From Candidatus Thiodiazotropha endoloripes (GTDB lineage Bacteria; Pseudomonadota; Gammaproteobacteria; Chromatiales; Chromatiaceae): 64,000 bases of DNA. Shown here one piece after another: positions 43,936 through 58,215 of the stretch. The notes below the pieces were generated by a model. It was not told where the DNA came from and searched no databases. It saw only the letters and a list, made by a program, of their open reading frames with translations. Every line of letters starts with the position of its first letter. Position 1 is the first letter of the stretch. The DNA is taken from the NCBI RefSeq assembly GCF_001708965.1, contig NZ_LVJW01000003.1, positions 1,240,001 to 1,304,000 on the forward strand, written 5' to 3'. A program made the translations under genes and the position numbers.

Positions 43936-44715
43936 CTATCTGGCCCGCTTCAGGCTGTTCTTATTGAAATCGGCATCCGTAAGTCCACTACGGAAATCGT
44001 ACTGCTTCCAGGTCAGCAGGGTGCTTTTGCCTGTCTGGTGGTTCTCCATATACATCTCATCGGCGCGCCAGTATTGATCCAGATATTGCTGATAGCCACG
44101 AAATACCAGGGTCTTCAACAGGACATTTTTTCGATCGTAATAGTCGATCTTGATCGGTATGTAACGCTCCTTGTCCACCCACATCTGCTGGCGTGTATAG
44201 CCCGAATTGGGGTCAACCGGATAGCGTTCCAGCAGTAACGAGGCGGTGCCTTCGTGCTCACTCTCCTCAATAAACTTATAGGTGTACTTTTCAACCTCCT
44301 GGGAAGAGATATCTTCATAGGCGAACTCGCTGCCCATGAAGGGGCCGGACTTGTTTCTGGAAGCGATTCTTTTAACCCGTTTGAGTGCAGGTAGATAGAG
44401 CCACTGATCATCATCACCGACTTTGTGCGAGAAGCTCAACAGTGCAGTGCCCTTAACGTCTCTGGGTTCATCAAAGACTACCAGAGTCTTGTCTCCGTCG
44501 TTCTCCACCTCGAGGGTCTGATTGCGCATATCGCGCAGGCTCTCTTCACCATGCCGGTTTTTCAGCAGCATGGTCATGCTGGCCTTGAAATCATGGAAAC
44601 CGGTATCTCTGGTATCCACCTCTTTGGCAATCTCAAGGCCCCGCTCTTCGGCTGTCATTGCCAGGGTGACTGCCGGTGTGAGCAAAAGCGTTGCAAGTAT
44701 CAAGCTGAGCTTCAT
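43936..44715 (-). CDS. LolA-like outer-membrane lipoprotein-sorting family protein
   Basis: 259-aa periplasmic protein: signal LILATLLLTPAVTLAM, then DFKASMTMLLKNRHGEE, DVKGTALLSFSHKVGDDDQWLYLPALKRVKRIASRNKSGPFMGSEFAYEDIS, which defines the COG2834 group that shares the LolA half-barrel and binds hydrophobic ligands. Four bases overlap the MMPL gene, so the protein probably shuttles the exported lipid between the inner-membrane transporter and the barrel protein. Confidence 0.88.
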   Translation of the reverse strand: MKLSLILATLLLTPAVTLAMTAEERGLEIAKEVDTRDTGFHDFKASMTMLLKNRHGEESLRDMRNQTLEVENDGDKTLVVFDEPRDVKGTALLSFSHKVGDDDQWLYLPALKRVKRIASRNKSGPFMGSEFAYEDISSQEVEKYTYKFIEESEHEGTASLLLERYPVDPNSGYTRQQMWVDKERYIPIKIDYYDRKNVLLKTLVFRGYQQYLDQYWRADEMYMENHQTGKSTLLTWKQYDFRSGLTDADFNKNSLKRAR

Positions 44716-46994
44716 GGTTTTTTTCCTCCGAAATAGATCAGTAGCGGGGGTAGAAAAAGAAAATCGGCAACCAGAGCCAGGCCCAAAGTGATTGCAGTCA
44801 ACAATCCCATGCCGGCATTGAGTTGGAAGTGGGAGAAGGCAAGGATGCCGAATCCGACCATCAGTACCAGGGAGGTTACCCAGAGTGCCGTTCCCACGGT
44901 AGAGAAGGCATAACGCACCGCATCTTCCCCGGACATATTTTTTTCGCGCCTGGCCCTTAGGTATTTGCTGAGAAAATGGACGGTATCATCGACAACGATA
45001 CCAAGTGTCATGCCGCTGACGACAGAGAGCGCCAATCCCACTTCACCCACGGTCAATCCCCAAAGACCAAAGGCCATGCCCATGGGCACCAGGTTCGGGA
45101 TCAGACTGATGCCGCCGATTCTCAATGAGCGCAAGGCAACCACCAGAATCAGGGAGATGATGATCAGAGCGGTGGTGGTACCTTTGAGCATCGCAATGAT
45201 GTTACGGCTACCGATATGGGCGAACATCACTGAGGGACTGGCGCCATCACTGCGCATCTCAGGTGCATTTTCCAACAGCCATTGCTGCGCGTCCTCTTCA
45301 ATCTGCAGCAGTTGCTGGGTCGAAATGCTCTCCAGAGTGACGGTGAACCGGGTAGCAGATTTCTTAACATTGATCTGATTGTTGAGATCAAGGCCGAACG
45401 GCAGGGAAAATTCATAGAGCAGCAGATACTGAGCCGAGAGATCCCGCTGTTCAGGCAGGCGATACCAGCTGTCATCGTCAGCGTGCATGTTACGATTGAG
45501 GCGTTTCATGATATCGGTGATCGTGTTGACATGAAGGACATGAGGCTGCTGCCGGTACCACTGGGCAAATCCATCAACTTTACGCAGAAAATCTGGATCG
45601 CTGATGCCACCGGTTTCACCACTCTCCAATGAATACTCAATCAGATAGATGCCGGTAAGATTGTCGGTGGCAAAATCGGTGTCCTGGCGAAAATCGATGG
45701 TCTCATCAAAATACTCGACAAATCTGTCATCCAGTCGATTGCTGGGTATCTGGACGATCAGGAACAGAATCAGTATGCCCATCCCCCAGAGCAGTTGCTT
45801 TTTATTTCGGATCACGAATTCAGCGAACCTGACCATGGCAAGACTGCCCATGGTATCTCCACTCAGCGCTTTCACCGGTAGCAGCATCATCATGGCAGGG
45901 AGAAAGGTGATTGATAACAGGAAAGCCAATACAACACCCATGGCTGCCATATTACCCAGATCCCGAAATGGTGGCGCATCACTGAAGTTGAGACTGAGGA
46001 AACCGATGGCAGTGGTCAGGGTAGTGAGAAATATCGGCTGCAGGTTGATACGCAGACTCTCCATCATGGCCTGATATTTAGCTTCACCCTCTCGCATGAA
46101 ATGGAGAAAGTTGACCAGTATATGAACACAGTCTGCGATTGCCAGGGTCATGATGACGATCGGTACCGTGGTGGTCGGGGGTGACATCTTGATGCCTAAC
46201 CAACCGGTCAGTCCCATGGTGGCGATTATCATCAGTAGAATGATGATGAGGGTGGAAATGGTACCCGGAATCGACCTCAACATCAGCACCAATACCAGGA
46301 TTACCGCTCCGAACATGATCGGATAGAGACTCTTCATGTCATCCTGGGAAGCGGTTGGAAACGCATTGTTCATGATTACCATGCCGGTCAGGTGCACCTT
46401 GATATCCGGGTAGCTGGCCTCCAGGTTCTTAGCCATCTGTTTGACCTTTGCTGCCACCTCCGGGACTTCGGTCAATTTCTTACCCGGCAGCTGTACGGTG
46501 ACATTCACCCCGGTTGTGTGGGCTGTGGGAGAGATCAGTCGATTCCTCAGAAGAGGATCATTGGTGGCGATTTGTTGCTTTGTGGCCAGCTCTTCATCGT
46601 TCAGTGAGGCTGGATCGAGCACCAGATCCTCGACGATCAGGTCGTCCCCTTCGGCATAGGTGTGTTGAAAATTGGTGATCGAGTCTACACGGATGGAGTA
46701 GGGGATCTGCCAGGCTTCCTTGGTTAATTCCGTTACCGCAGTCAGGTTTTCACGAGTGAATACCTTGCCATCCTGTGGTTCGATGACAAACAACACGTTG
46801 TCATTCTTAGTGTAGGTATTCTGCAACATTTCAAATGCTTTCAGCTGTGGGTTCTCTTCACTGAAAAACATTCGGTAGTCATTATTGAAGCGTAGATGCT
46901 GTACACCACTGCCCATCATCAGACTGACTGCAACAGTCAATAGAATCACTAGGATCTTGTGCTTTAGGACAAACCTGAAAAAGGACTCACTCAT
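44712..46994 (-). CDS. RND/MMPL-family transporter
   Basis: 760-aa transporter of the COG1033 group: N-terminal helix, periplasmic loop, a helix cluster with the sterol-sensing-like segment (TVPIVIMTLAIADCVHILVNFLHFMREGEAK), second periplasmic loop, and a second cluster with the charged relay IVVDDTVHFLSKYLRARREK. Relatives include the hopanoid exporter HpnN and MmpL lipid exporters. Operon with LolA-like and barrel genes; likely repressed by the TetR protein encoded 97 bases upstream on the same strand. Confidence 0.9.
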   Translation of the reverse strand: MSESFFRFVLKHKILVILLTVAVSLMMGSGVQHLRFNNDYRMFFSEENPQLKAFEMLQNTYTKNDNVLFVIEPQDGKVFTRENLTAVTELTKEAWQIPYSIRVDSITNFQHTYAEGDDLIVEDLVLDPASLNDEELATKQQIATNDPLLRNRLISPTAHTTGVNVTVQLPGKKLTEVPEVAAKVKQMAKNLEASYPDIKVHLTGMVIMNNAFPTASQDDMKSLYPIMFGAVILVLVLMLRSIPGTISTLIIILLMIIATMGLTGWLGIKMSPPTTTVPIVIMTLAIADCVHILVNFLHFMREGEAKYQAMMESLRINLQPIFLTTLTTAIGFLSLNFSDAPPFRDLGNMAAMGVVLAFLLSITFLPAMMMLLPVKALSGDTMGSLAMVRFAEFVIRNKKQLLWGMGILILFLIVQIPSNRLDDRFVEYFDETIDFRQDTDFATDNLTGIYLIEYSLESGETGGISDPDFLRKVDGFAQWYRQQPHVLHVNTITDIMKRLNRNMHADDDSWYRLPEQRDLSAQYLLLYEFSLPFGLDLNNQINVKKSATRFTVTLESISTQQLLQIEEDAQQWLLENAPEMRSDGASPSVMFAHIGSRNIIAMLKGTTTALIIISLILVVALRSLRIGGISLIPNLVPMGMAFGLWGLTVGEVGLALSVVSGMTLGIVVDDTVHFLSKYLRARREKNMSGEDAVRYAFSTVGTALWVTSLVLMVGFGILAFSHFQLNAGMGLLTAITLGLALVADFLFLPPLLIYFGGKKP

Positions 46995-47091: not shown

Positions 47092-47685
47092 TCAGCAACG
47101 CAGGCTGTCGAGATAGCCAAACAAACCCTGTGCGCAGCGTTTCAACTCATCGATGCTTTGCGCATTCTTTGCGATACCCATACAACCCTCAAGCGATGCC
47201 AGAATGAAGAGTGCGGCATCGGCAGGATCGATCGACGCTTTTACCGTAGCGTCCTGTTGGCCATCACGAAGTAGTTTTTCAATACTCTGTTGCCATTTTC
47301 GATAGAGGTGATCGATCCGCTGGCGAAACCCCGGGTCGATCGGTGACATCTCCTGTGCCAGATTGTTGAGAGGGCACCCCTGGTCAATCTGCTGGCTGGT
47401 GATCTGTTGCCCGGCCAGTTGGATAACATCGATCATGACGTCGATCGGGTGTCCGGGTTGCTGTATGGGAGTGAGCCACTCCCGGTCCAGTTTCTGGCTG
47501 ATTATCTCATCGATTACCGCATATCCCAGCTTCTGTTTACTGCTGAAGTGGTGGTAGAGAGCACCTTTGGTCACGCCGGTTCTCTCCAGTATGGTGTTCA
47601 GGCTGGCTGCCTGAAATCCATTCCGGTAGATCTCTTCGTAGGCCGCTTCGAGTAGGGCTTGGCGGGTTTTATCGGCATCTGCCAT
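47092..47685 (-). CDS. TetR/AcrR-family repressor
   Basis: 197 aa from ATG 47685 (GTG 47694 also in frame). N-terminal helix-turn-helix FQAASLNTILERTGVTKGALYHHFSSKQKLGYAVI is typical of the NemR/AcrR-like group; the C-terminal domain (LNNLAQEMSPIDPGFRQRI, ADAALFILASLEGCMGIAKN) resembles TetR_C_16/NemR types. A palindromic operator lies just upstream of the start, so it should control itself and the MMPL operon that follows on the same strand. Confidence 0.93.
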   Translation of the reverse strand: MADADKTRQALLEAAYEEIYRNGFQAASLNTILERTGVTKGALYHHFSSKQKLGYAVIDEIISQKLDREWLTPIQQPGHPIDVMIDVIQLAGQQITSQQIDQGCPLNNLAQEMSPIDPGFRQRIDHLYRKWQQSIEKLLRDGQQDATVKASIDPADAALFILASLEGCMGIAKNAQSIDELKRCAQGLFGYLDSLRC

Positions 47686-47710
47686 GGTTTTCACAGCTCG
47701 CTGATAATTA

Positions 47711-47964: not shown

Positions 47965-48162
47965 ATGTCTACGTCTGAACAGGCAACCCAGGATGAAATG
48001 ATGCAAATTGGCCCATCTGCGAGAGAGTTTTTGGACTATTGCAATGCTGAACGGGAGCGTCGCTTGAATTCAGGGGAGTCATTTGACGAACAGACCTTTG
48101 ATCAGGCCATTGAGATGGTGTTGAAAAAACTTCGGGTTCTGGCTGATGAGGGTTGGTCATGA
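47965..48162 (+). CDS. 65-aa acidic protein, unknown, coupled to SbcC-like ATPase
   Basis: Small helical acidic protein (EFLDYCNAERERRLNSGESFDEQTFDQAIEMVLKKLRVLADEGWS). A strong AGGGGG ribosome-binding site lies upstream and its stop codon overlaps the next start as ATGA, so it is translated with the ATPase and may be its partner or regulator. I recognise no domain. Length and coupling argue for a real gene. Confidence 0.8.
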   Translation: MSTSEQATQDEMMQIGPSAREFLDYCNAERERRLNSGESFDEQTFDQAIEMVLKKLRVLADEGWS

Positions 48163-50054
48163 TCATACATTCAATCAATGCCAGTAATGTTCTGAAATAC
48201 AGCAGTCTGAAATTACCGGAGATCCCTGAGCAAGGATTGATTGCCATCTCCGGGGCCAATGAATCAGGCAAAAGCTCGATCGGTGAGACCGTCTGTTTTG
48301 CGCTCTTCGGCAGGACCTTTTCATTGGGGCCTGAAGAGTTGACAAAAGTCATACGCTGGGGGGAGACCCATTGCGAAGCACAGCTTGAATTTACCTGCGG
48401 AGATGGTGTCCGCTACAGGTTGGAACGTTTTCTCGATGATGCCGGAAATCATAGTGCCCGCCTGGCCCCGGCCGGTGTAAACCATGATGATCAGGTGGTA
48501 CGCGGGATTGAGCAGGTGGCTGACCGGATCTATCAGCTTATCGGCTTTGAATATGAAGAGTTTGTTGAATCCTTCTACCTGGCTCAGCGGGAGATCACGA
48601 CCCCTCATCCACACAGTTATGCCGTCAAAACCATGGCTGGCCTGGTGACCCTGGAGTATTGTGATGCGGCCTGTCAGGAGGATCGGGATGATGCTGAAGA
48701 GGCGTTGAGCCAACGACAGCAGGAGCTTGGTGGATTGCAGCAACAGATGGTTGAGCTGGACATCGACCCGTCACTGATGCCGGGACTCGAGAGTGAGCGT
48801 CAGACTATTTCCCGGCAACTCGATGATACCCAACAGCTGATGGAAGAGTTGGATACGGCGTCCACCGCCTACCAGGATGCCATGCCGATCCGTGCCAAAT
48901 CAGCTTCCAAGGCTGGCAGTGCAGGATTTTTCAGCCTGATCTTTTTCTTGCTTGCTGCCGTTGCCGGTGGTGCCTGGTATATGCTGACCAACATGCCTGA
49001 ACATGAATTGTCAGTCCGCTTGAATGAGTGGCTTGTGCAGATGGTTCCTGACTGGGGTGAGGCAACACTTCCCTGGTTATTATATGCAGCAGCTGGCGCT
49101 GGTCTGCTGTTTTTGGTCTTTTTGATCCGCCGGGGGGCATTGAAGAGTCGAGTGGCAGCCTATTCAGAGACTGCTTCAACCCTGGCTGACGTTCTCAACC
49201 GGCTGGATGAAGGGCCATCAAAAGTTGCTGCTGATGAGACGCAGGATGCCCAATTGTCAGAGGTTGAAACCGATCAGGAAGAAACCGTTACCGATACCTC
49301 AGGCGTTGATGAAACTCCCGCGATTGTTGATCGTGCCGCGCGTAGCCGGTTGGTCACCAGGATCAGTGATTGGTCAGCAACGGTTGCGGAAGTTCGGGAT
49401 AGTGTTGCCGGTGAGTTGGATCAGCTGAATAGCAATTTGGATCAGATGCGGTTACGTGCCGATGAGCTCAATCAGGCGATTGGCATAGAGCAGGAGCGAT
49501 TGGATAGGGCGGCAAGACTCAAAGAGATGATGGCCAGCCTGAATGAGAAGATCGATGAGCGACAGCACTACATTCAGACCTGCAATCTGGCTGATGAGCT
49601 GATTCGGGGAACCACACGGGAAGTTTCACACCAGTTTAATCGCAAACTGCGGGGATTGGTCAGTAAGACGCTTCCTCTGTTTACTGAGAATCGATATGAA
49701 CATCTGCAGATCGATGATGACCTGACGGTGCGAGCCTTCTCCAGCGAGAAGCGGGATTTCATGGATCTGGATGAGATCTCCAGCGGAACCCAACGACAAA
49801 TCATGCTGGCAGTCAGATTGGCACTCTCCCAGGAGTTGGTCGCTCGTGCCGTCAAAGGGGGGCAGTTTCTGTTTCTCGATGAGCCGTTCGCCTTCTTTGA
49901 TGAAAAACGCACCCGCAGTTCACTTACCGTACTGCCTACTCTGAGTGAAGAGCTTAAACAGATCTGGATCGTGGCGCAGGATTTTGCCGATGATCTGAAA
50001 TTTGATCTGCATATTCAATGCGACCGGGATATGGATCAACTGCCGGTGGCATAG
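48159..50054 (+). CDS. SbcC/Rad50-like ATPase with central transmembrane hairpin
   Basis: 631-aa ABC-type DNA-repair-like ATPase. Walker A GANESGKSS at 32-40, Q-loop region with FYLAQREITTPH (138-150), coiled coil 175-245, two membrane helices at about 256-276 and 304-323 separated by a 27-residue periplasmic-type loop, second coiled coil 395-480, ABC signature SSGTQRQIMLAVRLALS (541-557) and Walker B FLFLDEPFAFFDE (570-582). The membrane hairpin sits at the tip of the arm where Rad50/SbcC has its CxxC zinc hook, which is absent. It resembles the Bacillus YhaN group. No SbcD-type nuclease gene is adjacent; hrpB follows by 6 bases. Confidence 0.85.
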   Translation: MIIHSINASNVLKYSSLKLPEIPEQGLIAISGANESGKSSIGETVCFALFGRTFSLGPEELTKVIRWGETHCEAQLEFTCGDGVRYRLERFLDDAGNHSARLAPAGVNHDDQVVRGIEQVADRIYQLIGFEYEEFVESFYLAQREITTPHPHSYAVKTMAGLVTLEYCDAACQEDRDDAEEALSQRQQELGGLQQQMVELDIDPSLMPGLESERQTISRQLDDTQQLMEELDTASTAYQDAMPIRAKSASKAGSAGFFSLIFFLLAAVAGGAWYMLTNMPEHELSVRLNEWLVQMVPDWGEATLPWLLYAAAGAGLLFLVFLIRRGALKSRVAAYSETASTLADVLNRLDEGPSKVAADETQDAQLSEVETDQEETVTDTSGVDETPAIVDRAARSRLVTRISDWSATVAEVRDSVAGELDQLNSNLDQMRLRADELNQAIGIEQERLDRAARLKEMMASLNEKIDERQHYIQTCNLADELIRGTTREVSHQFNRKLRGLVSKTLPLFTENRYEHLQIDDDLTVRAFSSEKRDFMDLDEISSGTQRQIMLAVRLALSQELVARAVKGGQFLFLDEPFAFFDEKRTRSSLTVLPTLSEELKQIWIVAQDFADDLKFDLHIQCDRDMDQLPVA

Positions 50055-50060
50055 AGTTGA

Positions 50061-52571
50061 GTGACAGAGCTACCAGTACAACAGGTCATCTACGAACTTT
50101 CTGAAACCCTGGCGACTCAGGGCCGGGCTGTGTTAAGTGCGCCGCCCGGCTCTGGTAAAACAACCCTGGTACCTCTTGAACTGCTGAACAGCCCCTGGCT
50201 TGACGGAAACGGAATTCTGTTACTCGAACCAAGGCGTCTCGCCGCTCGGGCGGCTGCCGCCAGAATGGCCAGTCTGCTGGGTGAGCAGATAGGTGAACGA
50301 GTCGGCTATTCAATACGGCTAGAACGAAAAGTTTCCCGCAACACGCGCATCGAGGTGGTGACCGAGGGGATTTTGACCCGCCGGTTACAACAGGATCCAG
50401 AACTGCCCGGGGTAGGGCTGGTGATCTTCGATGAGTTTCACGAACGTAATCTGCACAGCGACCTCTCACTTGCCCTGACTTTGGATACCCAGCAGGGTTT
50501 GCGTGAAGACCTGCGTCTGTTGGTCATGTCGGCCACCCTCGATCAGCACGCTGTCAGTAGGCTACTGCGTGATGCTGCGGTGATTCAGGCGCAGGGAAGG
50601 CAGCATCCGATAACACACCATTACCTTGATCAGGCTTTAGACAAAACCAAAATTGCCGAGCAGGCCGTCAAAGCAATCATCAGGGCCTGGCAGAATGAGC
50701 AGGGCGATTTACTGGTATTTCTTCCTGGTGTCGGTGAAATCCGTAGTGCTCAAAAACTGCTCGAAGCGCAGATGAAAAACCAAAACCAGCCTGTTCTCAT
50801 CTCGCCCCTGTATGGCGATCTTTCAAAGGACGATCAGGACCGAGCCATACTCCCCGATCCACACAAAAGACGCCGTATTGTACTGACTACCTCGATTGCG
50901 GAAACCAGCCTGACGATCGAGGGCATCACCGTGGTGGTCGATGGTGGCTGGTCTCGCATGCCTCGGTTTCTGCCGGCGATCGGGTTGACCCGGCTGGAGA
51001 CTGTTCCGGTCTCAAAAGCCGCTGCAGATCAACGTGCCGGTAGGGCGGGGCGCTTAGGGCCCGGGGTCTGTTATCGGATCTGTAGCGAATCAGCCCATAA
51101 CCAATCGTTATCTCATCACCCGGCGGAGATTCTGCAGACCGACTTGGCGCCAGTAGCGCTGCAACTGGCCAGCTGGGGTATTGCAGATCCAGCTCAGTTG
51201 CAGTGGCTTGATCCGCCTCCAAAGGGAGCCTTCGCACAGGCGGTGACGCTGTTACAGAGACTCGGTGCGGTCGATCAGCAGGGAATGATCACGCGGCTGG
51301 GAAGACGCATGGCTGAATTGCCAACCCATCCGCGGTTGGCGCATATGCTGATTCATGCTCCGGGAGATCAGTTGCAACTGGTCAGTGATCTCGTGGCGTT
51401 GATTACTGAGCGGGATCCTTTATCGATCCGGGAGGATGGCAGTGATTTAGCCTTACGGCTCACTCTGTTGCAGCAGTGGCGGGAAAAGAGCCTTAGCGAA
51501 TCCCGGTATCGAAGTGCCTGCCGTCATATTGACCGGATCAGTAGGGATTGGTTGAGACGATTGCGGATCAGCGGGAGAACCGATTCCAATGGTCTGTTAT
51601 CGGCAGGGGAGCTGCTGGCTCTGGCATTCCCTGATCGTATAGCACAACGTTCCGCACATGGTCGTTACAGATTGGTCACCGGTCGTGCGGTGCGGCTTGC
51701 AGAGGATGATCCACTTGCCGGGGAGGAGTATCTGGTCGCTGTTCAATTAGATGCCGGGCTAAATGAAGGGCGTATCCGATTGGCTGCATCCATTGGTTTG
51801 AAAGCGTTGCATGGACTGCCCGAAATCACACTCGAAGAGCGATCGGTTGTTTGCTGGGAGCGTAAGGAAGAACGGGTAAGAACCTCATCTGAGACCTGCC
51901 TGGGAGCATTGGTATTGAGCCGGGAAAAGCTCATCAATCCCGATCCTGAAGCCGTCAGGGCCGCGATGATAGAAGGGGTACGGACTATGGGGATCGGAGC
52001 ATTGCCCTGGTCCAAGGCCGTACGTCAATGGCAACTCAGAGTCAATTGGTTGGTGGCCCGACTGGATGATCCGGCATGGCCGGATCTATCGGATCGATGG
52101 CTTTTTGAAAATCTTGAGAGCTGGTTGACACCATGGCTGGAAAAGATTCAGAGCAAACAGCAGCTACAGCGTCTGGATCTGCAAGCCATTCTATTGGCCC
52201 GGCTTTCCTGGGATCAGCAGCAAACCCTGAAATCAATGGCGCCAACGCATCTTACCGTTCCCAGTGGTTCAAAAATCCCGTTACGATATAGCGCCGATGA
52301 AGCGCCGGTGTTGGCAGTAAGACTGCAAGAGCTGTTTGGGCTGAATGACACCCCAAAGATATGTCAGGGTAGGGTGCCTGTGATGTTACACCTACTCTCT
52401 CCGGCACATCGGCCGATACAGATTACTGATGATCTTGCCGGGTTTTGGCAAAGAACCTATGCTGAGGTAAAAAAAGAGCTAAAAGGTCGATATCCAAAAC
52501 ATTATTGGCCAGATAATCCACTGCTTGCTGAAGCGACTCACAAGGCGAAGCCCCGTAAGTCGGGGGGGTAG
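50061..52571 (+). CDS. hrpB: ATP-dependent helicase HrpB
   Basis: DEAH-type helicase, 836 aa, GTG start. Walker A APPGSGKT (27-34), DEFHERNLHSDLSLAL (motif II, near residue 125), MSATLD (III), TSIAETSLTIEGITVVVDGGWSRMPRF (V) and the QRAGRAGR motif VI, followed by the HrpB-specific C-terminal domain. HrpB is widespread but its RNA or DNA substrate is not established. It is 6 bases after the SbcC-like gene and ends one base into the alternative start of the kinase gene, so it lies in one operon with the SbcC-like gene. Confidence 0.93.
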   Translation: MTELPVQQVIYELSETLATQGRAVLSAPPGSGKTTLVPLELLNSPWLDGNGILLLEPRRLAARAAAARMASLLGEQIGERVGYSIRLERKVSRNTRIEVVTEGILTRRLQQDPELPGVGLVIFDEFHERNLHSDLSLALTLDTQQGLREDLRLLVMSATLDQHAVSRLLRDAAVIQAQGRQHPITHHYLDQALDKTKIAEQAVKAIIRAWQNEQGDLLVFLPGVGEIRSAQKLLEAQMKNQNQPVLISPLYGDLSKDDQDRAILPDPHKRRRIVLTTSIAETSLTIEGITVVVDGGWSRMPRFLPAIGLTRLETVPVSKAAADQRAGRAGRLGPGVCYRICSESAHNQSLSHHPAEILQTDLAPVALQLASWGIADPAQLQWLDPPPKGAFAQAVTLLQRLGAVDQQGMITRLGRRMAELPTHPRLAHMLIHAPGDQLQLVSDLVALITERDPLSIREDGSDLALRLTLLQQWREKSLSESRYRSACRHIDRISRDWLRRLRISGRTDSNGLLSAGELLALAFPDRIAQRSAHGRYRLVTGRAVRLAEDDPLAGEEYLVAVQLDAGLNEGRIRLAASIGLKALHGLPEITLEERSVVCWERKEERVRTSSETCLGALVLSREKLINPDPEAVRAAMIEGVRTMGIGALPWSKAVRQWQLRVNWLVARLDDPAWPDLSDRWLFENLESWLTPWLEKIQSKQQLQRLDLQAILLARLSWDQQQTLKSMAPTHLTVPSGSKIPLRYSADEAPVLAVRLQELFGLNDTPKICQGRVPVMLHLLSPAHRPIQITDDLAGFWQRTYAEVKKELKGRYPKHYWPDNPLLAEATHKAKPRKSGG

Positions 52572-52627
52572 TGGTTGAATGTCAAGTTACGCTTGGTTTA
52601 TGGATTACGCTGTCGGAAAAGCACAAG

Positions 52628-55153
52628 ATGTGGTCAGAATTTTGGAATAGATATAGAGGCCAGTTCAATCAGGCACCCGACCGGGAGTCTGAGCAGTCGA
52701 TTGTCAGATTGATAATCGCTTTGGTAATGTGCCTATATATTTTCTACGTCTATCTATTCATTCCTTCGGAGAGTGCTTCCAGACTACTGCCTCTGGCGCT
52801 GCTCTATACCCTCTGCAGCTTGATAATCATGATGGTGATTGCATGGAAGCCCCATGTTTTCACAATCCGTCGTACAATCACCATGTCATTCGATGTCAGT
52901 ATGATTACCCTTGCGATGTGGATTGGTGGTGAAACCACCTCGATGCTCTACGTATTCTATCTTTGGATCAGTCTCGGAAACGGATTTCGTTTTGGTACCC
53001 CATCTCTCTATTTCACAAGTACTCTATCCACACTTGGATTTGCTTCGGTGATCTTGATCAGCGACTTTTGGAAAGAGCAGCAGGTTCTGGGTATTGGACT
53101 GTTACTCGGATTGTTGATTACAACACTCTATGTTGCTCTGTTACTGCTGCGTATAGAGCGTGAAAAAAAGCGTGCTGAAGCATCGAGTCAGGCGAAGAGT
53201 CGTTTTCTGGCCAACATGAGTCACGAAATACGCACCCCCCTGAATGGTGTGGTCGGGATGACCGATCTGCTGGCAAGAACGCCAATGGGATTGGAGCAAC
53301 GGGAGATCATGTCGACCATTCAGGCATCGGCTGAGACTCTACTCAATCTTATCGAGGAGATTCTCGATTTTTCCAAGATTGAGGCGGGTAAGGTTGAGGT
53401 AAGACTTGTTGACCAGGATCTATCCGAGCTTGCAGACAGTGTGATATCGATGATGAAACCGACAGCCGATTCCAAAGGTATTGAGCTGAATTGCTGGATA
53501 GACCTGGATATCTCTCCGGTGATCAAAACTGATCCCAAGCTACTTCGGCAAATTCTGATCAATCTGTTGAACAACGCGATTAAATTTACCGACCAGGGCG
53601 GTATCGTGCTGAAGGTAACGCCATACACATCAGCGGAAAGTGAGGATGGTGTACCCAGATTGATGTTTGAAGTCATAGATACGGGTATCGGCATTTCTGA
53701 AGCCCAACAGAAACGGATTTTCGAATGGTTTGAACAAGGTGATGATTCTGCCACCCGTCGATATACCGGAAGTGGCCTCGGTACAACAATTACCAAACAA
53801 CTGGTTGAGTTATTGGATGGGACCATAGGCCTGGAGAGTCGTTTGGGGGAAGGCAGTCGATTCTGGTTTCAGATACCAGCTGTTTCCAGTGATACTCCTA
53901 TTGACATAGAGCGTTTTCAGGATGCCAGGGTGTTATTGTTCACCGACCTCCTATCTGAAAAGCAGGATTTACTGGACGGATTGCAGGAGTGGCAGTTGGA
54001 CGTGAAAGTCTACTCTAACCTTTCAGAGGGATTTCTGGAGTTGATCAATGCCGTTAAGGTTAAGGAACCCTATGACATTGCAATCCTGGATGAGACTCAT
54101 AGCGATCTGCATGATGAGGAGTTGGTTCATACCATACGTGCTGAAAAAAGTCTGGACGATCTTGGATTGGTTTGTGTTACCAATTACTCCCCAAATCTGC
54201 AAAATGAGAACAGATTGTGTCATGAAGGCTTCAGTGCGGTGGTAACCACGCCGATTACTCCAGACAAGGTACGCCATGTTCTGCAGTATGCCTTAAAGCG
54301 CAAAATCAGCACCAATTTACCACCCAGGATTTTCACCTCTGCTGAACATAGCATTGCCAAACATGCCCAAATCCTCCTTGCTGAGGATAATCCGATCAAT
54401 CAGAAGGTAGTGAAAAAGATCCTTGAGTTACAAGGGCATCAGATTGAGGTGGTCAGTCATGGTCAGGAGGCCATTGAATTATTGAAAAGTGAAACATTTG
54501 ACCTGGCAATACTTGACCTGCAAATGCCGGACATTGGAGGGATTGATATCATTAAGGCCTATCGTCTGATGCAAAAGCAGGGGGCTGCCATACCCTTCGT
54601 CATTCTTACCGCAAATGCCACTCGGGAAGCAGCAGAAGAGTGTGAGGCTATTGGTGTCGAAGCTTATCTCACCAAACCAGTCAGGTCAGCACATCTATTG
54701 GATGTGGTGAAAGGGATCCTGGGCGGTGACTCCACTGAAGTGATAACCGATACCATAGTCGATCTGCCGATTCGTGCTGCCAATCAGGAAAAGAGTGGAA
54801 GAATACTCGATGTAAACACACTGCAAGGTCTCGAGAGATTGAGTAAGGATCCGGAATTCATGTCGCACTTGGCGGATAGTTTTCTACATGATTCTGAAGC
54901 ATTGATGACCGCAATGCATCAAGCAATCGAGCTGCATGATGTAAGAGGTTATAAGGATTGTGCCCATGCATTAGCAGATAACGCTTCTGGTATCGGGGCC
55001 TACTCTCTGATGACGATTTGCGCTTCAGCTTCCCGTATTGAACAGCCGGAGTTGAATGATCAAGGTGTTAAGCAGATGAGTCAGATCTCTACAACCTATA
55101 GCTTAACCTGTCAGGCGTTGCGTCATTATCTGAATATCAAGAATCCTGAATAG
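52628..55153 (+). CDS. rpfC: RpfC-like hybrid sensor histidine kinase
   Basis: 841 aa from ATG 52628 (MWSEFWNRYRG; GTG 52571 is in frame but adds 19 residues not typical of RpfC). N-terminal membrane domain with about five helices (25-175), HisKA with H199 (MSHEIRTPLNGV), HATPase_c with NNAIKF, DTGIGI and GSGLGT, a degenerate first receiver (about 433-560), a canonical receiver (580-700; phospho-acceptor D630 in LAILDLQMP, TKP Lys) and an HPt domain with H780. Xanthomonas RpfC senses the diffusible signal factor and phosphorylates RpfG. Convergent with rpfG and an RpfC-like gene; no rpfF found in the window. Confidence 0.88.
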   Translation: MWSEFWNRYRGQFNQAPDRESEQSIVRLIIALVMCLYIFYVYLFIPSESASRLLPLALLYTLCSLIIMMVIAWKPHVFTIRRTITMSFDVSMITLAMWIGGETTSMLYVFYLWISLGNGFRFGTPSLYFTSTLSTLGFASVILISDFWKEQQVLGIGLLLGLLITTLYVALLLLRIEREKKRAEASSQAKSRFLANMSHEIRTPLNGVVGMTDLLARTPMGLEQREIMSTIQASAETLLNLIEEILDFSKIEAGKVEVRLVDQDLSELADSVISMMKPTADSKGIELNCWIDLDISPVIKTDPKLLRQILINLLNNAIKFTDQGGIVLKVTPYTSAESEDGVPRLMFEVIDTGIGISEAQQKRIFEWFEQGDDSATRRYTGSGLGTTITKQLVELLDGTIGLESRLGEGSRFWFQIPAVSSDTPIDIERFQDARVLLFTDLLSEKQDLLDGLQEWQLDVKVYSNLSEGFLELINAVKVKEPYDIAILDETHSDLHDEELVHTIRAEKSLDDLGLVCVTNYSPNLQNENRLCHEGFSAVVTTPITPDKVRHVLQYALKRKISTNLPPRIFTSAEHSIAKHAQILLAEDNPINQKVVKKILELQGHQIEVVSHGQEAIELLKSETFDLAILDLQMPDIGGIDIIKAYRLMQKQGAAIPFVILTANATREAAEECEAIGVEAYLTKPVRSAHLLDVVKGILGGDSTEVITDTIVDLPIRAANQEKSGRILDVNTLQGLERLSKDPEFMSHLADSFLHDSEALMTAMHQAIELHDVRGYKDCAHALADNASGIGAYSLMTICASASRIEQPELNDQGVKQMSQISTTYSLTCQALRHYLNIKNPE

Positions 55154-55240
55154 AGTCATATTTTCCAGAACCGGTCAAGCAAACTCCGTGTATAGAGTGG
55201 ATGGTTCTATTGAGCTTGCTGAAGTCCGATGATGTATCTG

Positions 55241-57160
55241 CTATTTGGAGGGTGTGCTGTTTGGTTCCAATTGAATGGCTGATGCTCTTTGAGATAGATA
55301 GTGAGCATAAGCATGCAAGGTCAGATTGAATGTCTGCTGCAATTCACTTAGCAGATCTGAGCCTTTATATTCAAATTCTCGGGCAGAGAGTTTTGAGGCC
55401 TGTTGACTGAGTTCGTAGAGTAGTACAGCTCCCAGTTGACCAGCACTATCCAGGAGTATTTGGGCCTGATCAAGAAATTTACCAAGCTCACGCGCGGCCA
55501 CAGCTCGCTCCATCTCACGTAAAATAGAACGGCCTTCAGATTCAAATATCTTGAACAGATCATTGATGAATGAGATGCCGCTGTCCAGTTTCTCAAGTCT
55601 CAATAGAGTCATATGATCAAGCAGCATGGCATCCTGAATTTTATTGTTCTTAAATTGTATCGGATCCGTTTTACGTGAGACATAGGTCAAATTCTGCAAA
55701 TCGCCCTTATCGAGTGCTGCAAGAATTGAGAGAAGTACCTCTTGCGGTGTGATCGGCTTAAACAGACAGATATCCACCCCGATGCTTTGACAGAGATTGA
55801 GCGTTTCGGGATTCTCTTCATCTTCCACAAAGATAAAGGGTACCCACTGTTTGTACGGAGTGGTAAATCGATGAAGCTTGACTACCTGAGTGCCGCTCAT
55901 GATAGGTAGTTGCAGATTGATGATGGCTAAATCAAAAAAGTGTTCTTCAAGTGCATCCAGTGCCTGGTCACCATTATCAACCAAATGAATATTATATCCT
56001 GCCTGTGTCAAGGCGTGGCTTAGTGAATCACGCTCATGTGAAGGAGTATCTGCCAGTAATATCTCTTTTTGGCGAGTGTAGGCCTGTTTGGTAGTACGGT
56101 GTTTAACCAAGCTTACAACATTATCACAGGAGGAGTATGTTTTGCTGTCGTAACTGATGATGCTGAACAGCTGCTCTTTACTCCATGGGGATTCGAGTAG
56201 CGTGTGATAGCCTGCGCGTAGCAATCTGTGCGCATACTTCTCATTGTAAAAAGATGTTTGAATACAGATCAGTCGAACATCATCAAGTAGTGGTTCATTC
56301 TTGATCAGGCGTGCCAATGACAGTGGCTCAATATCCAGATTTTCTCCATCAACAATGAGAAAAGAGTAGGGGGTAAAGACCTCACCCTGACTACGAGAGA
56401 GCATGTGTTTGAATGCCTGCAGGCTGTTACTGCAGGTTGTTGTTTCATGTCCCCAATCGAACAGTTGACGGGTGAGAAGTGTCGTGCTGCTTTTGTTTCG
56501 GGATAATATCAAAATGCGCTGAATATTGCGTTTCACTCGCTGACCGGTAAATTGCTGTCTATCCGCAGTTGATTCAGTATGTTCCGGGGGCTCCTCTTCA
56601 AGTTCAGGTAATGTGGGTAACTCTTCTTTGTCCTGGTTGTCCTCTTTCGAAGCACCATATCTCCGTATGGAGACAAGGGCAGGGGGTATCAGAGCAAGAA
56701 CGCTCAGTAGTAATGTCTGTAGCAACTCCATTTGAAGTGCCAGATGAAGTGTGGTGGTCAGCATTGTAAACGCTGTACCAATTCCTACCCAAAGATATGA
56801 TCTGCCAAAAAAGCGTGAAGCAAAAATCAATACACTGCTGAGAGGTAACAGCAGTAGGGCCGAACCACCAGCAAAGGTGATCAGTCCGAGATAGAGCTGA
56901 TCGAGAACAATTGATGAACTGCGTTTGATTTGGCTGGAGGAATAGAGGCATTTATAGTGCTCAATAAAACGGAGCAACAGGAATTGACAGGCCAATACCA
57001 GTGTAGTGAGGTTAACCAGGGTCGATGTGGACCAGAGATAGGTCAACACCAAACCAACCAATGCGACAAAGCTGACAAATAAGCTCAGGCTGTAATAGAA
57101 CTGGTCACTCTTATGTGAGGTGGTGTCAGGTCTCTGTGTGGTTACTGTTTGCTCGTTCAA
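55241..57160 (-). CDS. RpfC-like membrane protein without kinase domains
   Basis: 639 aa, TTG start overlapping the rpfG stop as TTGA. An N-terminal multi-helix domain (about residues 22-165) is followed by two receiver-like domains and an HPt-like domain, the same order as the C-terminal half of RpfC, but HisKA and HATPase are missing. Receiver 1 (about 215-338) lacks the acidic pair (SRNKS) and the Lys (ESPW); receiver 2 (365-485) has N415 where the phospho-acceptor Asp belongs (LAIINLQLP). The HPt segment AQILLDSAGQLGA has Q567 at the phospho-His position (H780 in the kinase). It therefore looks unable to take part in phosphotransfer. It may be a ligand-binding regulator of RpfG or RpfC. 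Confidence 0.85.
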   Translation of the reverse strand: MNEQTVTTQRPDTTSHKSDQFYYSLSLFVSFVALVGLVLTYLWSTSTLVNLTTLVLACQFLLLRFIEHYKCLYSSSQIKRSSSIVLDQLYLGLITFAGGSALLLLPLSSVLIFASRFFGRSYLWVGIGTAFTMLTTTLHLALQMELLQTLLLSVLALIPPALVSIRRYGASKEDNQDKEELPTLPELEEEPPEHTESTADRQQFTGQRVKRNIQRILILSRNKSSTTLLTRQLFDWGHETTTCSNSLQAFKHMLSRSQGEVFTPYSFLIVDGENLDIEPLSLARLIKNEPLLDDVRLICIQTSFYNEKYAHRLLRAGYHTLLESPWSKEQLFSIISYDSKTYSSCDNVVSLVKHRTTKQAYTRQKEILLADTPSHERDSLSHALTQAGYNIHLVDNGDQALDALEEHFFDLAIINLQLPIMSGTQVVKLHRFTTPYKQWVPFIFVEDEENPETLNLCQSIGVDICLFKPITPQEVLLSILAALDKGDLQNLTYVSRKTDPIQFKNNKIQDAMLLDHMTLLRLEKLDSGISFINDLFKIFESEGRSILREMERAVAARELGKFLDQAQILLDSAGQLGAVLLYELSQQASKLSAREFEYKGSDLLSELQQTFNLTLHAYAHYLSQRASAIQLEPNSTPSK

Positions 57161-58215
57161 GAATGCGTTCCTTCGAGGTTTCCACGCAGAGCATAGTGTA
57201 TCGCCTCCACTTCCTGCATTTCGCTGAGAAATGCATCTGCGCAGTCTGGATCAAAATGGGATCCTCTCTCTTGGCTAATATAGTCAATGGCCTTTTCAAT
57301 TGACCAGCTTTTTTTATAGGGTCTATCTGAGACCAAGGCATCAAAAACGTCAGCAACTGCCACTATTCTGGCTTCAAGAGGTATTTTATCGCCGTTCAAA
57401 TTGTTCGGATAGCCCGTTCCGTTGTATTTTTCATGATGATTGAGGGCGATGATCGCGCCAGTTTGAATATACTTCGATAAGCTGTCTTTGAGTATTTCGT
57501 ATCCGAGTAGCGTGTGTCGTTGCATGATTTTGTACTCTTCCGCGGTCAATTTACCGGGTTTGAGCAGGATTGCGTCAGGTATACCGATTTTGCCTATATC
57601 ATGCATAGGAGCTGACTGGGCAATCAAATCGCATCGTTCTTGAGATAATCTCAGTTTTTTGGCGATCAGTAGAGAATACCTGGAGATTCTTAAAATATGA
57701 TTACCGGTATCTTCATCCCGGTATTCACCAGCTTTTGCAAGACGCATCAGGGTTTCCTGTTCCCGGTCGTGAAGCTCCTGGGTGGTTTTGCGTATCTCCT
57801 GTTCCAGTAAAAGTGCTCGATCTTTGATCATTTTCCGCTGATGACTCATGGTCAACATATTGTTGCAGCGGGCTTTACACTCAGTGTGATCGATTGGTTT
57901 GGTGATGAAGTCGTTGGCGCCGGATTCGAGAGCAGAGTAGCGAACAGACTGATCCTCCACGCAGGTTACAATCATAACGGGCACATCGCTGCAACCTGGA
58001 ATACGCCTTAACCACTTTATAAACTTTATACCATCCATCTGAGGCATTTTGTAATCGGTGATCACGAGGTCTATTTCATGGGTTTTGGCCCAATCCAACG
58101 CTTCAGTTGGATCAGCAAAACAGGTAGACGAGACATCTGCATCAATTGAACCGACCAATTCTTGAAGAATCATACGGGTTATTGATTGGTCATCAATGAT
58201 AAGTACATGGGGCAT
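57157..58215 (-). CDS. rpfG: RpfG-like response regulator with HD-GYP phosphodiesterase
   Basis: 352 aa: receiver domain (1-125; acidic residues in LIIDDQ, D54 in VITDYKMP, Lys in TKPID) and HD-GYP domain (about 150-340) with H205-D206 (MHDIGKIGIPD), HHEKYNGTGYP at 260-270 and DALVSDRPYKKSW. HD-GYP enzymes hydrolyse c-di-GMP; in Xanthomonas RpfG is the output of RpfC. Metal and GYP motifs look intact. Co-transcribed with the kinase-less RpfC-like gene (4-base overlap). Confidence 0.93.
   Translation of the reverse strand: MPHVLIIDDQSITRMILQELVGSIDADVSSTCFADPTEALDWAKTHEIDLVITDYKMPQMDGIKFIKWLRRIPGCSDVPVMIVTCVEDQSVRYSALESGANDFITKPIDHTECKARCNNMLTMSHQRKMIKDRALLLEQEIRKTTQELHDREQETLMRLAKAGEYRDEDTGNHILRISRYSLLIAKKLRLSQERCDLIAQSAPMHDIGKIGIPDAILLKPGKLTAEEYKIMQRHTLLGYEILKDSLSKYIQTGAIIALNHHEKYNGTGYPNNLNGDKIPLEARIVAVADVFDALVSDRPYKKSWSIEKAIDYISQERGSHFDPDCADAFLSEMQEVEAIHYALRGNLEGTHS

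Follow-up and report, generated by a model that had tools for sequence, protein, structure and literature searches.

The window analyzed here, a stretch of 64,000 nucleotides from Candidatus Thiodiazotropha endoloripes (genome of 4.46 Mb), carries the gene of a small acidic protein, p65, followed by the gene of a Rad50-type ATPase. These two genes are a real conserved unit; the adjacency of the HrpB helicase gene, located downstream of them in the window, is not general. Both the sequence and a structural model show that the ATPase has the head fold and the ATPase motifs of the Rad50 type, and that it has a conserved hydrophobic hairpin and no zinc hook. The reading that is tentatively favored is that p65 and the ATPase would form a Rad50-type clamp complex with membrane-hairpin arms, holding or sensing nucleic acid at the membrane without a nuclease. 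The features of the locus are the following.

47965..48162, + strand: p65, acidic protein of 65 aa, pI 4.3; helical hairpin in the AF2 model (residues 17-34 and 42-61)
48159..50054, + strand: Rad50-type ATPase, 631 aa; its start ATG overlaps the p65 stop
48252..48278, + strand: Walker A region GANESGKSS, ATPase residues 32-40; conserved columns
48924..48986, + strand: predicted TM helix 1, ATPase residues 256-276; from hydropathy, helix in the AF2 model
48987..49067, + strand: ATPase loop, residues 277-303; net acidic (1 K/R, 5 D/E), predicted periplasmic
49068..49127, + strand: predicted TM helix 2, ATPase residues 304-323; from hydropathy and the AF2 model
49161..49364, + strand: acidic linker, ATPase residues 335-402; variable, partly of low confidence in the AF2 model
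49779..49799, + strand: ATPase signature motif SSGTQRQ, residues 541-547; invariant columns
49866..49901, + strand: ATPase Walker B/D-loop FLFLDEPFAFFD, residues 570-581; columns mostly invariant
50061..52571, + strand: HrpB DEAH-box helicase (TIGR01970, 984.8 bits); lineage-specific neighbor outside the conserved unit

The ATPase ATG at 48159 sits inside an ATGA that has four bases in common with the p65 stop region, and the same frame has an earlier TTG at 48153. HrpB starts with a GTG at 50061, six bases past the end of the ATPase stop (50054). A scan of the locus found three promoters and three terminators, against 4.0 and 4.2 in shuffled sequence; as these counts are no higher than in the shuffles, the scan does not support a transcript. 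In the window, the pair is flanked by a TetR regulator (47092-47694), by HrpB and then by a hybrid histidine kinase (Pfam). Farther out, an MMPL/RND-like transporter gene and an adjoining lipoprotein-sorting-type gene, both recognized by eye, lie beside the TetR regulator (43936-46994). On the other side (52571-58215), the histidine kinase is followed by two opposite-strand genes that by eye resemble receiver/Hpt and HD-GYP response regulators.

Conservation of the p65-ATPase pair

The original prediction grouped three genes and proposed a survey of the genomic context of p65 and the ATPase. This survey gave strong co-occurrence for p65 and the ATPase and did not extend it to HrpB. Among the best 80 of 260 relatives, many of which are close kin, p65 lies directly upstream of the ATPase at all 78 intact named loci, two loci at contig ends (L052 and L115) having been left out of the count. 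The predicted coupling of the ATPase to a small acidic protein is borne out; the genes overlap by four bases at 74 of these loci, with a spacing of -2 at three and of -76 at one. At 20 distant loci, p65 is found upstream in 18 cases, two of them weak (E 0.023 and 0.068), and other frames take its place at L182 and L183. In a set of 90 loci, the frame of the ATPase escaped the ORF caller at nine.

The same association is seen in whole genomes. Among 369 genomes of the same class, 36 have the ATPase (E<=1e-30), 35 have a p65 match (E<=0.01) and 33 have both; in all 33, the coordinates place p65 upstream of the ATPase, in the same orientation and no more than about 320 bases away. The two p65 matches in genomes without the ATPase are weak (0.0014 and 0.0094), and a p65 match is lacking in three genomes with the ATPase, G150, G266 and G350, the last of which has a weak p65 at L184. 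Among 70 relatives, p65 and a strong ATPase match occur in exactly the same 34 genomes; a search of 75 genomes for the ATPase gave 38 matches, 36 of them strong. In the genus of the window, the pair is present in 21 of 22 genomes, G012 having neither gene. In a phylum-wide sample, 34 of 349 genomes are positive, 33 of these outside the window's class. Pairwise distances, calculated for 22 of 29 loci, correlate at 0.93 for p65 and the ATPase, at 0.79 for the ATPase and HrpB and at 0.67 for p65 and HrpB. The gene overlap and the near-perfect co-occurrence speak for a putative complex of p65 and the ATPase.

The dN/dS values against the two closest relatives are 0.09-0.10 for the ATPase and 0.10-0.19 for p65. 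The closest named ATPase record among the best 80 of 260 relatives, with 93% identity, is from Candidatus Thiodiazotropha endoloripes. The pair is also present in a named Sedimenticola strain (L107), a genus that can be cultured. Since it consists of two short genes and is found in this strain, the pair is experimentally tractable.

Head, hairpin and small partner

In Pfam (E<=0.001), the window ATPase matches AAA_23 above its cut-off (39.8 bits) and AAA_21 barely above; SMC_N and SbcC_Walker_B match below their own cut-offs. The motifs comprise Walker A (NESGKSS, 34-40), Q143, SSGTQRQ (541-547) and Walker B (FLFLDEPFAFFD, 570-581). In an alignment of 59 ATPases, from which 20 of 78 sequences with at least 85% identity to a kept sequence were left out, the invariant columns span Walker A (G32, N34, E35, G37, K38 and S39), Q143, SSGTQRQ and LDEPFAFFD. 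The signature SSGTQRQ is not of the LSGGE type. The position of the His switch is occupied by a Gln, Q607, which is invariant in the 59 sequences and aligns with a His of M. jannaschii Rad50. The family profile retrieves both M. jannaschii Rad50 (1.8e-36) and E. coli SbcC (4.6e-05).

In the AF2 model built on the 59 sequences (mean pLDDT 85, pTM 0.58), each end of the protein forms a mixed head lobe. The helices cover residues 162-200, 206-278, 301-348 and 409-508, and residues 362-386 are disordered. Rad50 heads rank first against this model, both in Foldseek (5dny, E 2.2e-15) and in VIA-align (3av0_B, Z 31.4; rmsd of 4.5 over 350 aligned residues), in agreement with the Rad50-type head originally predicted. 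As SMC heads score nearly as high (5xns_A, Z 30.0), the match identifies the Rad50/SMC superfamily rather than one family. Column entropy is lowest in the heads (1.15 and 0.86 bits) and highest in the linker (2.69); the TM helices have 1.68 and 1.84 bits, compared to 2.35-2.45 for loop and coils. The net charge of the heads is acidic in all 59 sequences (median -13, range -27 to -4), which does not favor a strong DNA clamp.

The position of the zinc hook is taken by a hydrophobic segment of two helices (256-276 and 304-323), as had been expected from the window sequence. CxxC is absent from all 30 ATPase-family proteins inspected, one of them cut at its start, and the hairpin is hydrophobic in at least 58 of the 59 aligned ATPases: the best 19-residue hydropathy reaches 1.3 or more at TM1 in 59/59 and at TM2 in 58/59, and 1.6 or more at both in 51/59. 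The flanks of the hairpin carry more positive charge than its loop in all 59. Among the ATPases of the 20 distant loci (616-781 aa), 16 have two hydropathy peaks above 1.6, three have one and one has none (L169). In L167 and L182 the two peaks are only 12 and 15 residues apart, and the hairpin is therefore less clear. Based on hydropathy, charge pattern and AF2 helices, the hairpin is predicted to be inserted in the inner membrane; as hydropathy does not equal topology, this insertion is inferred.

The partner p65 was modeled by AF2 from 58 sequences as a helical hairpin (pLDDT 82, pTM 0.64); L076, without a start giving 55-73 aa, was left out of this alignment. Its conserved pattern is F-x3-C-x2-E-x-ERR-x-N ... 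F-D. The window p65 has no family match in Pfam (E<=0.001), NCBIfam or PADLOC (E<=0.1). A Pfam search with the 58 members at E<=1 gave scattered matches, the best being RbcX (0.014, in two members). The p65 profile found no relative in the PDB (best Cullin-3, E 0.069), and Foldseek gave no informative fold match for the model (best E 5.1). Coevolution analysis of 65 non-redundant p65-ATPase pairs (Neff ~38) yielded scattered top pairs.

By eye, the p65 pattern is similar to that of the Rad50-binding region of SbcD. Profile comparison did not support p65 as an SbcD/Mre11-type Rad50-binding domain, for want of a signal above column shuffles: hhalign with the C-terminal helices of SbcD gave a probability of 0.1 over a very short stretch, 171 of 200 column shuffles scoring as high. 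A broader p65 profile brought little improvement, the score of the real alignment being matched in 11, 4, 48 and 39 of 60 shuffles under four settings. The p65 hairpin is so short that kinship could go unnoticed. At L043 and L044, p65 matches lie within long open frames (312 and 356 aa), in which internal Met codons permit p65-sized genes. A fusion of p65 and the ATPase was considered and rejected, as none was seen and these two long frames are explicable by internal Met starts.

Neighboring genes and possible functions

The neighbors of the pair change by lineage, and some of them hint at RNA or envelope roles. In general, they look like housekeeping genes. A TetR-like cluster lies near the pair at 16 of 90 loci. 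Eleven loci have HslVU-like genes (identified by eye) together with a GBBH-like_N gene, and six have an aminotransferase cluster. In L072-L121, the gene upstream of p65 is frequently of the RNase II family; it is often accompanied by a GCV_T-domain gene and, as read by eye, by a lysyl-tRNA synthetase gene farther up.

An RNA-surveillance module, in which the ATPase, HrpB and an RNase II-family exoribonuclease would jointly handle RNA at the membrane, is an unlikely explanation of the locus. It draws on two neighbors, both encoded on the same strand as the pair. HrpB follows the ATPase at 32 of the 84 loci that offer 2.5 kb or more of downstream sequence (31/83 without one repeated locus), and an RNase II-family gene (PF00773; RNB 187.9 bits) lies just upstream at 32 of the 95 that offer 1.5 kb on that side (31/94 without one repeated locus; L046 repeats L073 among the 108 loci). 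However, both neighbors are unseen at the 20 distant loci, in five of which the downstream sequence is shorter than 2.5 kb. The spacing to HrpB, six bases in the window, varies from about 10 to 1853 bases across loci, and elsewhere the pair has HslVU-like or PBP_like_2 genes as neighbors. The original prediction was correct on the position of HrpB in the window; its inclusion of HrpB in the system did not hold. The PBP_like_2 (phosphate-binding-type) gene, located 3' of the ATPase at all nine examined loci outside the window's class (L166-L174), would fit an envelope energizer, in which ATP-driven head motion is relayed via the membrane hairpin to an envelope partner. The conserved hydrophobic hairpin argues for the same explanation, but this neighbor is absent at the window and the inter-helix loop of ~27 residues is poorly conserved (entropy of 2.4 bits vs 0.9-1.2 for the heads), leaving the energizer with a low probability. 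It is quite improbable that the protein is an SbcCD-type repair ATPase using a nuclease encoded elsewhere. Besides the Rad50-type heads, it draws on the 11 of the 36 ATPase genomes in which SbcD is above cut-off and on seven more of the 36 with a weaker match; in all, SbcD is above cut-off in 43 of the 369 same-class genomes. Against it, 25 of the 36 bearers have no SbcD above cut-off, the window's genome has no SbcD match (TIGR00619; same model positive in 13 of 14 controls), the hook is absent, and the SbcD profile has no match at 110 loci. Two positive controls, an SbcD (5.5e-202) and a YhaO-type protein (L188, 2.3e-9), were recovered with this profile. The frequencies of SbcD in the two groups of genomes also led to the rejection of the pair as an SbcCD replacement: with SbcD in 11/36 vs 32/333, the pair does not replace SbcD.

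Rad50/SMC-like ATPases work in Lamassu and other defense systems, and PADLOC matches the window ATPase with mad3 (59.2 bits) and LmuB (48.3 bits), probably because of the common head fold. Still, the anti-phage role suggested earlier found little support, and the chance given to an anti-phage or anti-plasmid system is very small. The ATPase has no match in 50,697 phage records, and a pattern-seeded scan gave one weak viral-contig match (37% identity, residues 542-614). Four plasmid records match partially (23-27% of the protein, about 28% identity), beside SbcD genes. With its presence in 21 of the 22 genus genomes and its divergence along with HrpB (r 0.79), the pair looks like a stable chromosomal component rather than an anti-virus system, and a defense role is unlikely.

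The favored reading, a Rad50-type clamp complex at the membrane, implies an ATPase dimer. Its coiled-coil arms would carry a membrane hairpin of two helices at the tip, where other family members have the zinc hook, and p65 would be its small, helical and obligate subunit. On binding ATP the two heads would come together as a clamp, to open again on hydrolysis, the arms being held fixed in the inner membrane. The complex, with no nuclease of its own, would hold or sense nucleic acid at the membrane, DNA being the most plausible ligand. Membrane insertion, dimerization, p65-ATPase binding, DNA as ligand and the tethering role are conditional parts of this proposal. It is held at somewhat less than an even chance, because the heads are acidic, the neighbors change and the ligand is an inferred one. 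A more specific version is rather doubtful: a nuclease-free, membrane-anchored Mre11-Rad50-type machine, in which the p65 hairpin would replace the Rad50-binding part of Mre11, and which would tether DNA to the membrane in two or more classes of a single phylum. As a rule, SMC/Rad50 ATPases have a nuclease or a kleisin as partner, and a hook or a hinge closes their arms. In the parts of the literature searched, no account of a Rad50-like ATPase with a membrane hairpin and a small partner turned up. If true, a widespread family member with a membrane hairpin for a hook and a tiny helical partner would open a direct way to study how nucleic-acid clamps are linked to the membrane in bacteria.

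Comparison with known systems

The window ATPase shares with Rad50/SbcC a Rad50-type head split into an N and a C lobe, a coiled-coil arm, and the Walker A, Q-loop and Walker B motifs. It differs in having two hydrophobic helices at the arm tip instead of the CxxC hook, an SSGTQ signature, a Gln at the His switch, and an adjoining 65-aa partner instead of an SbcD/Mre11-type gene. Without a hook, and in a genome without SbcD, the window ATPase is not SbcC.

YhaN/SbcE was named in the original prediction as the nearest group. It shares with the window family an SMC-like ATPase and a related C-lobe, but when the profile was compared with a single YhaN-type protein from Gammaproteobacteria, the alignment covered only 64 columns, all in the C-lobe, at probability 53, leaving the N-lobe unaligned. 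Of the 59 family members, just three match AAA_27 (PF13514), the N-terminal domain of YhaN, at E<=0.001 (best 0.00016), and the window protein does not match it. On these grounds YhaN kinship was rejected. The expected absence of the YhaO-type nuclease partner did hold: no such metallophosphoesterase adjoins the ATPase at the 110 loci, in a search that recovered its positive control.

Lamassu LmuB, finally, has a Rad50/SMC-like head similar to that of the window ATPase, as seen from the PADLOC match and from 9uxh_F (E 3.4e-11). PADLOC gives no Lmu match for the window p65 or HrpB. The window locus differs from Lamassu in its neighbors, which are TetR, HrpB and histidine kinase genes rather than Lmu genes, and in the predicted membrane hairpin of its ATPase.
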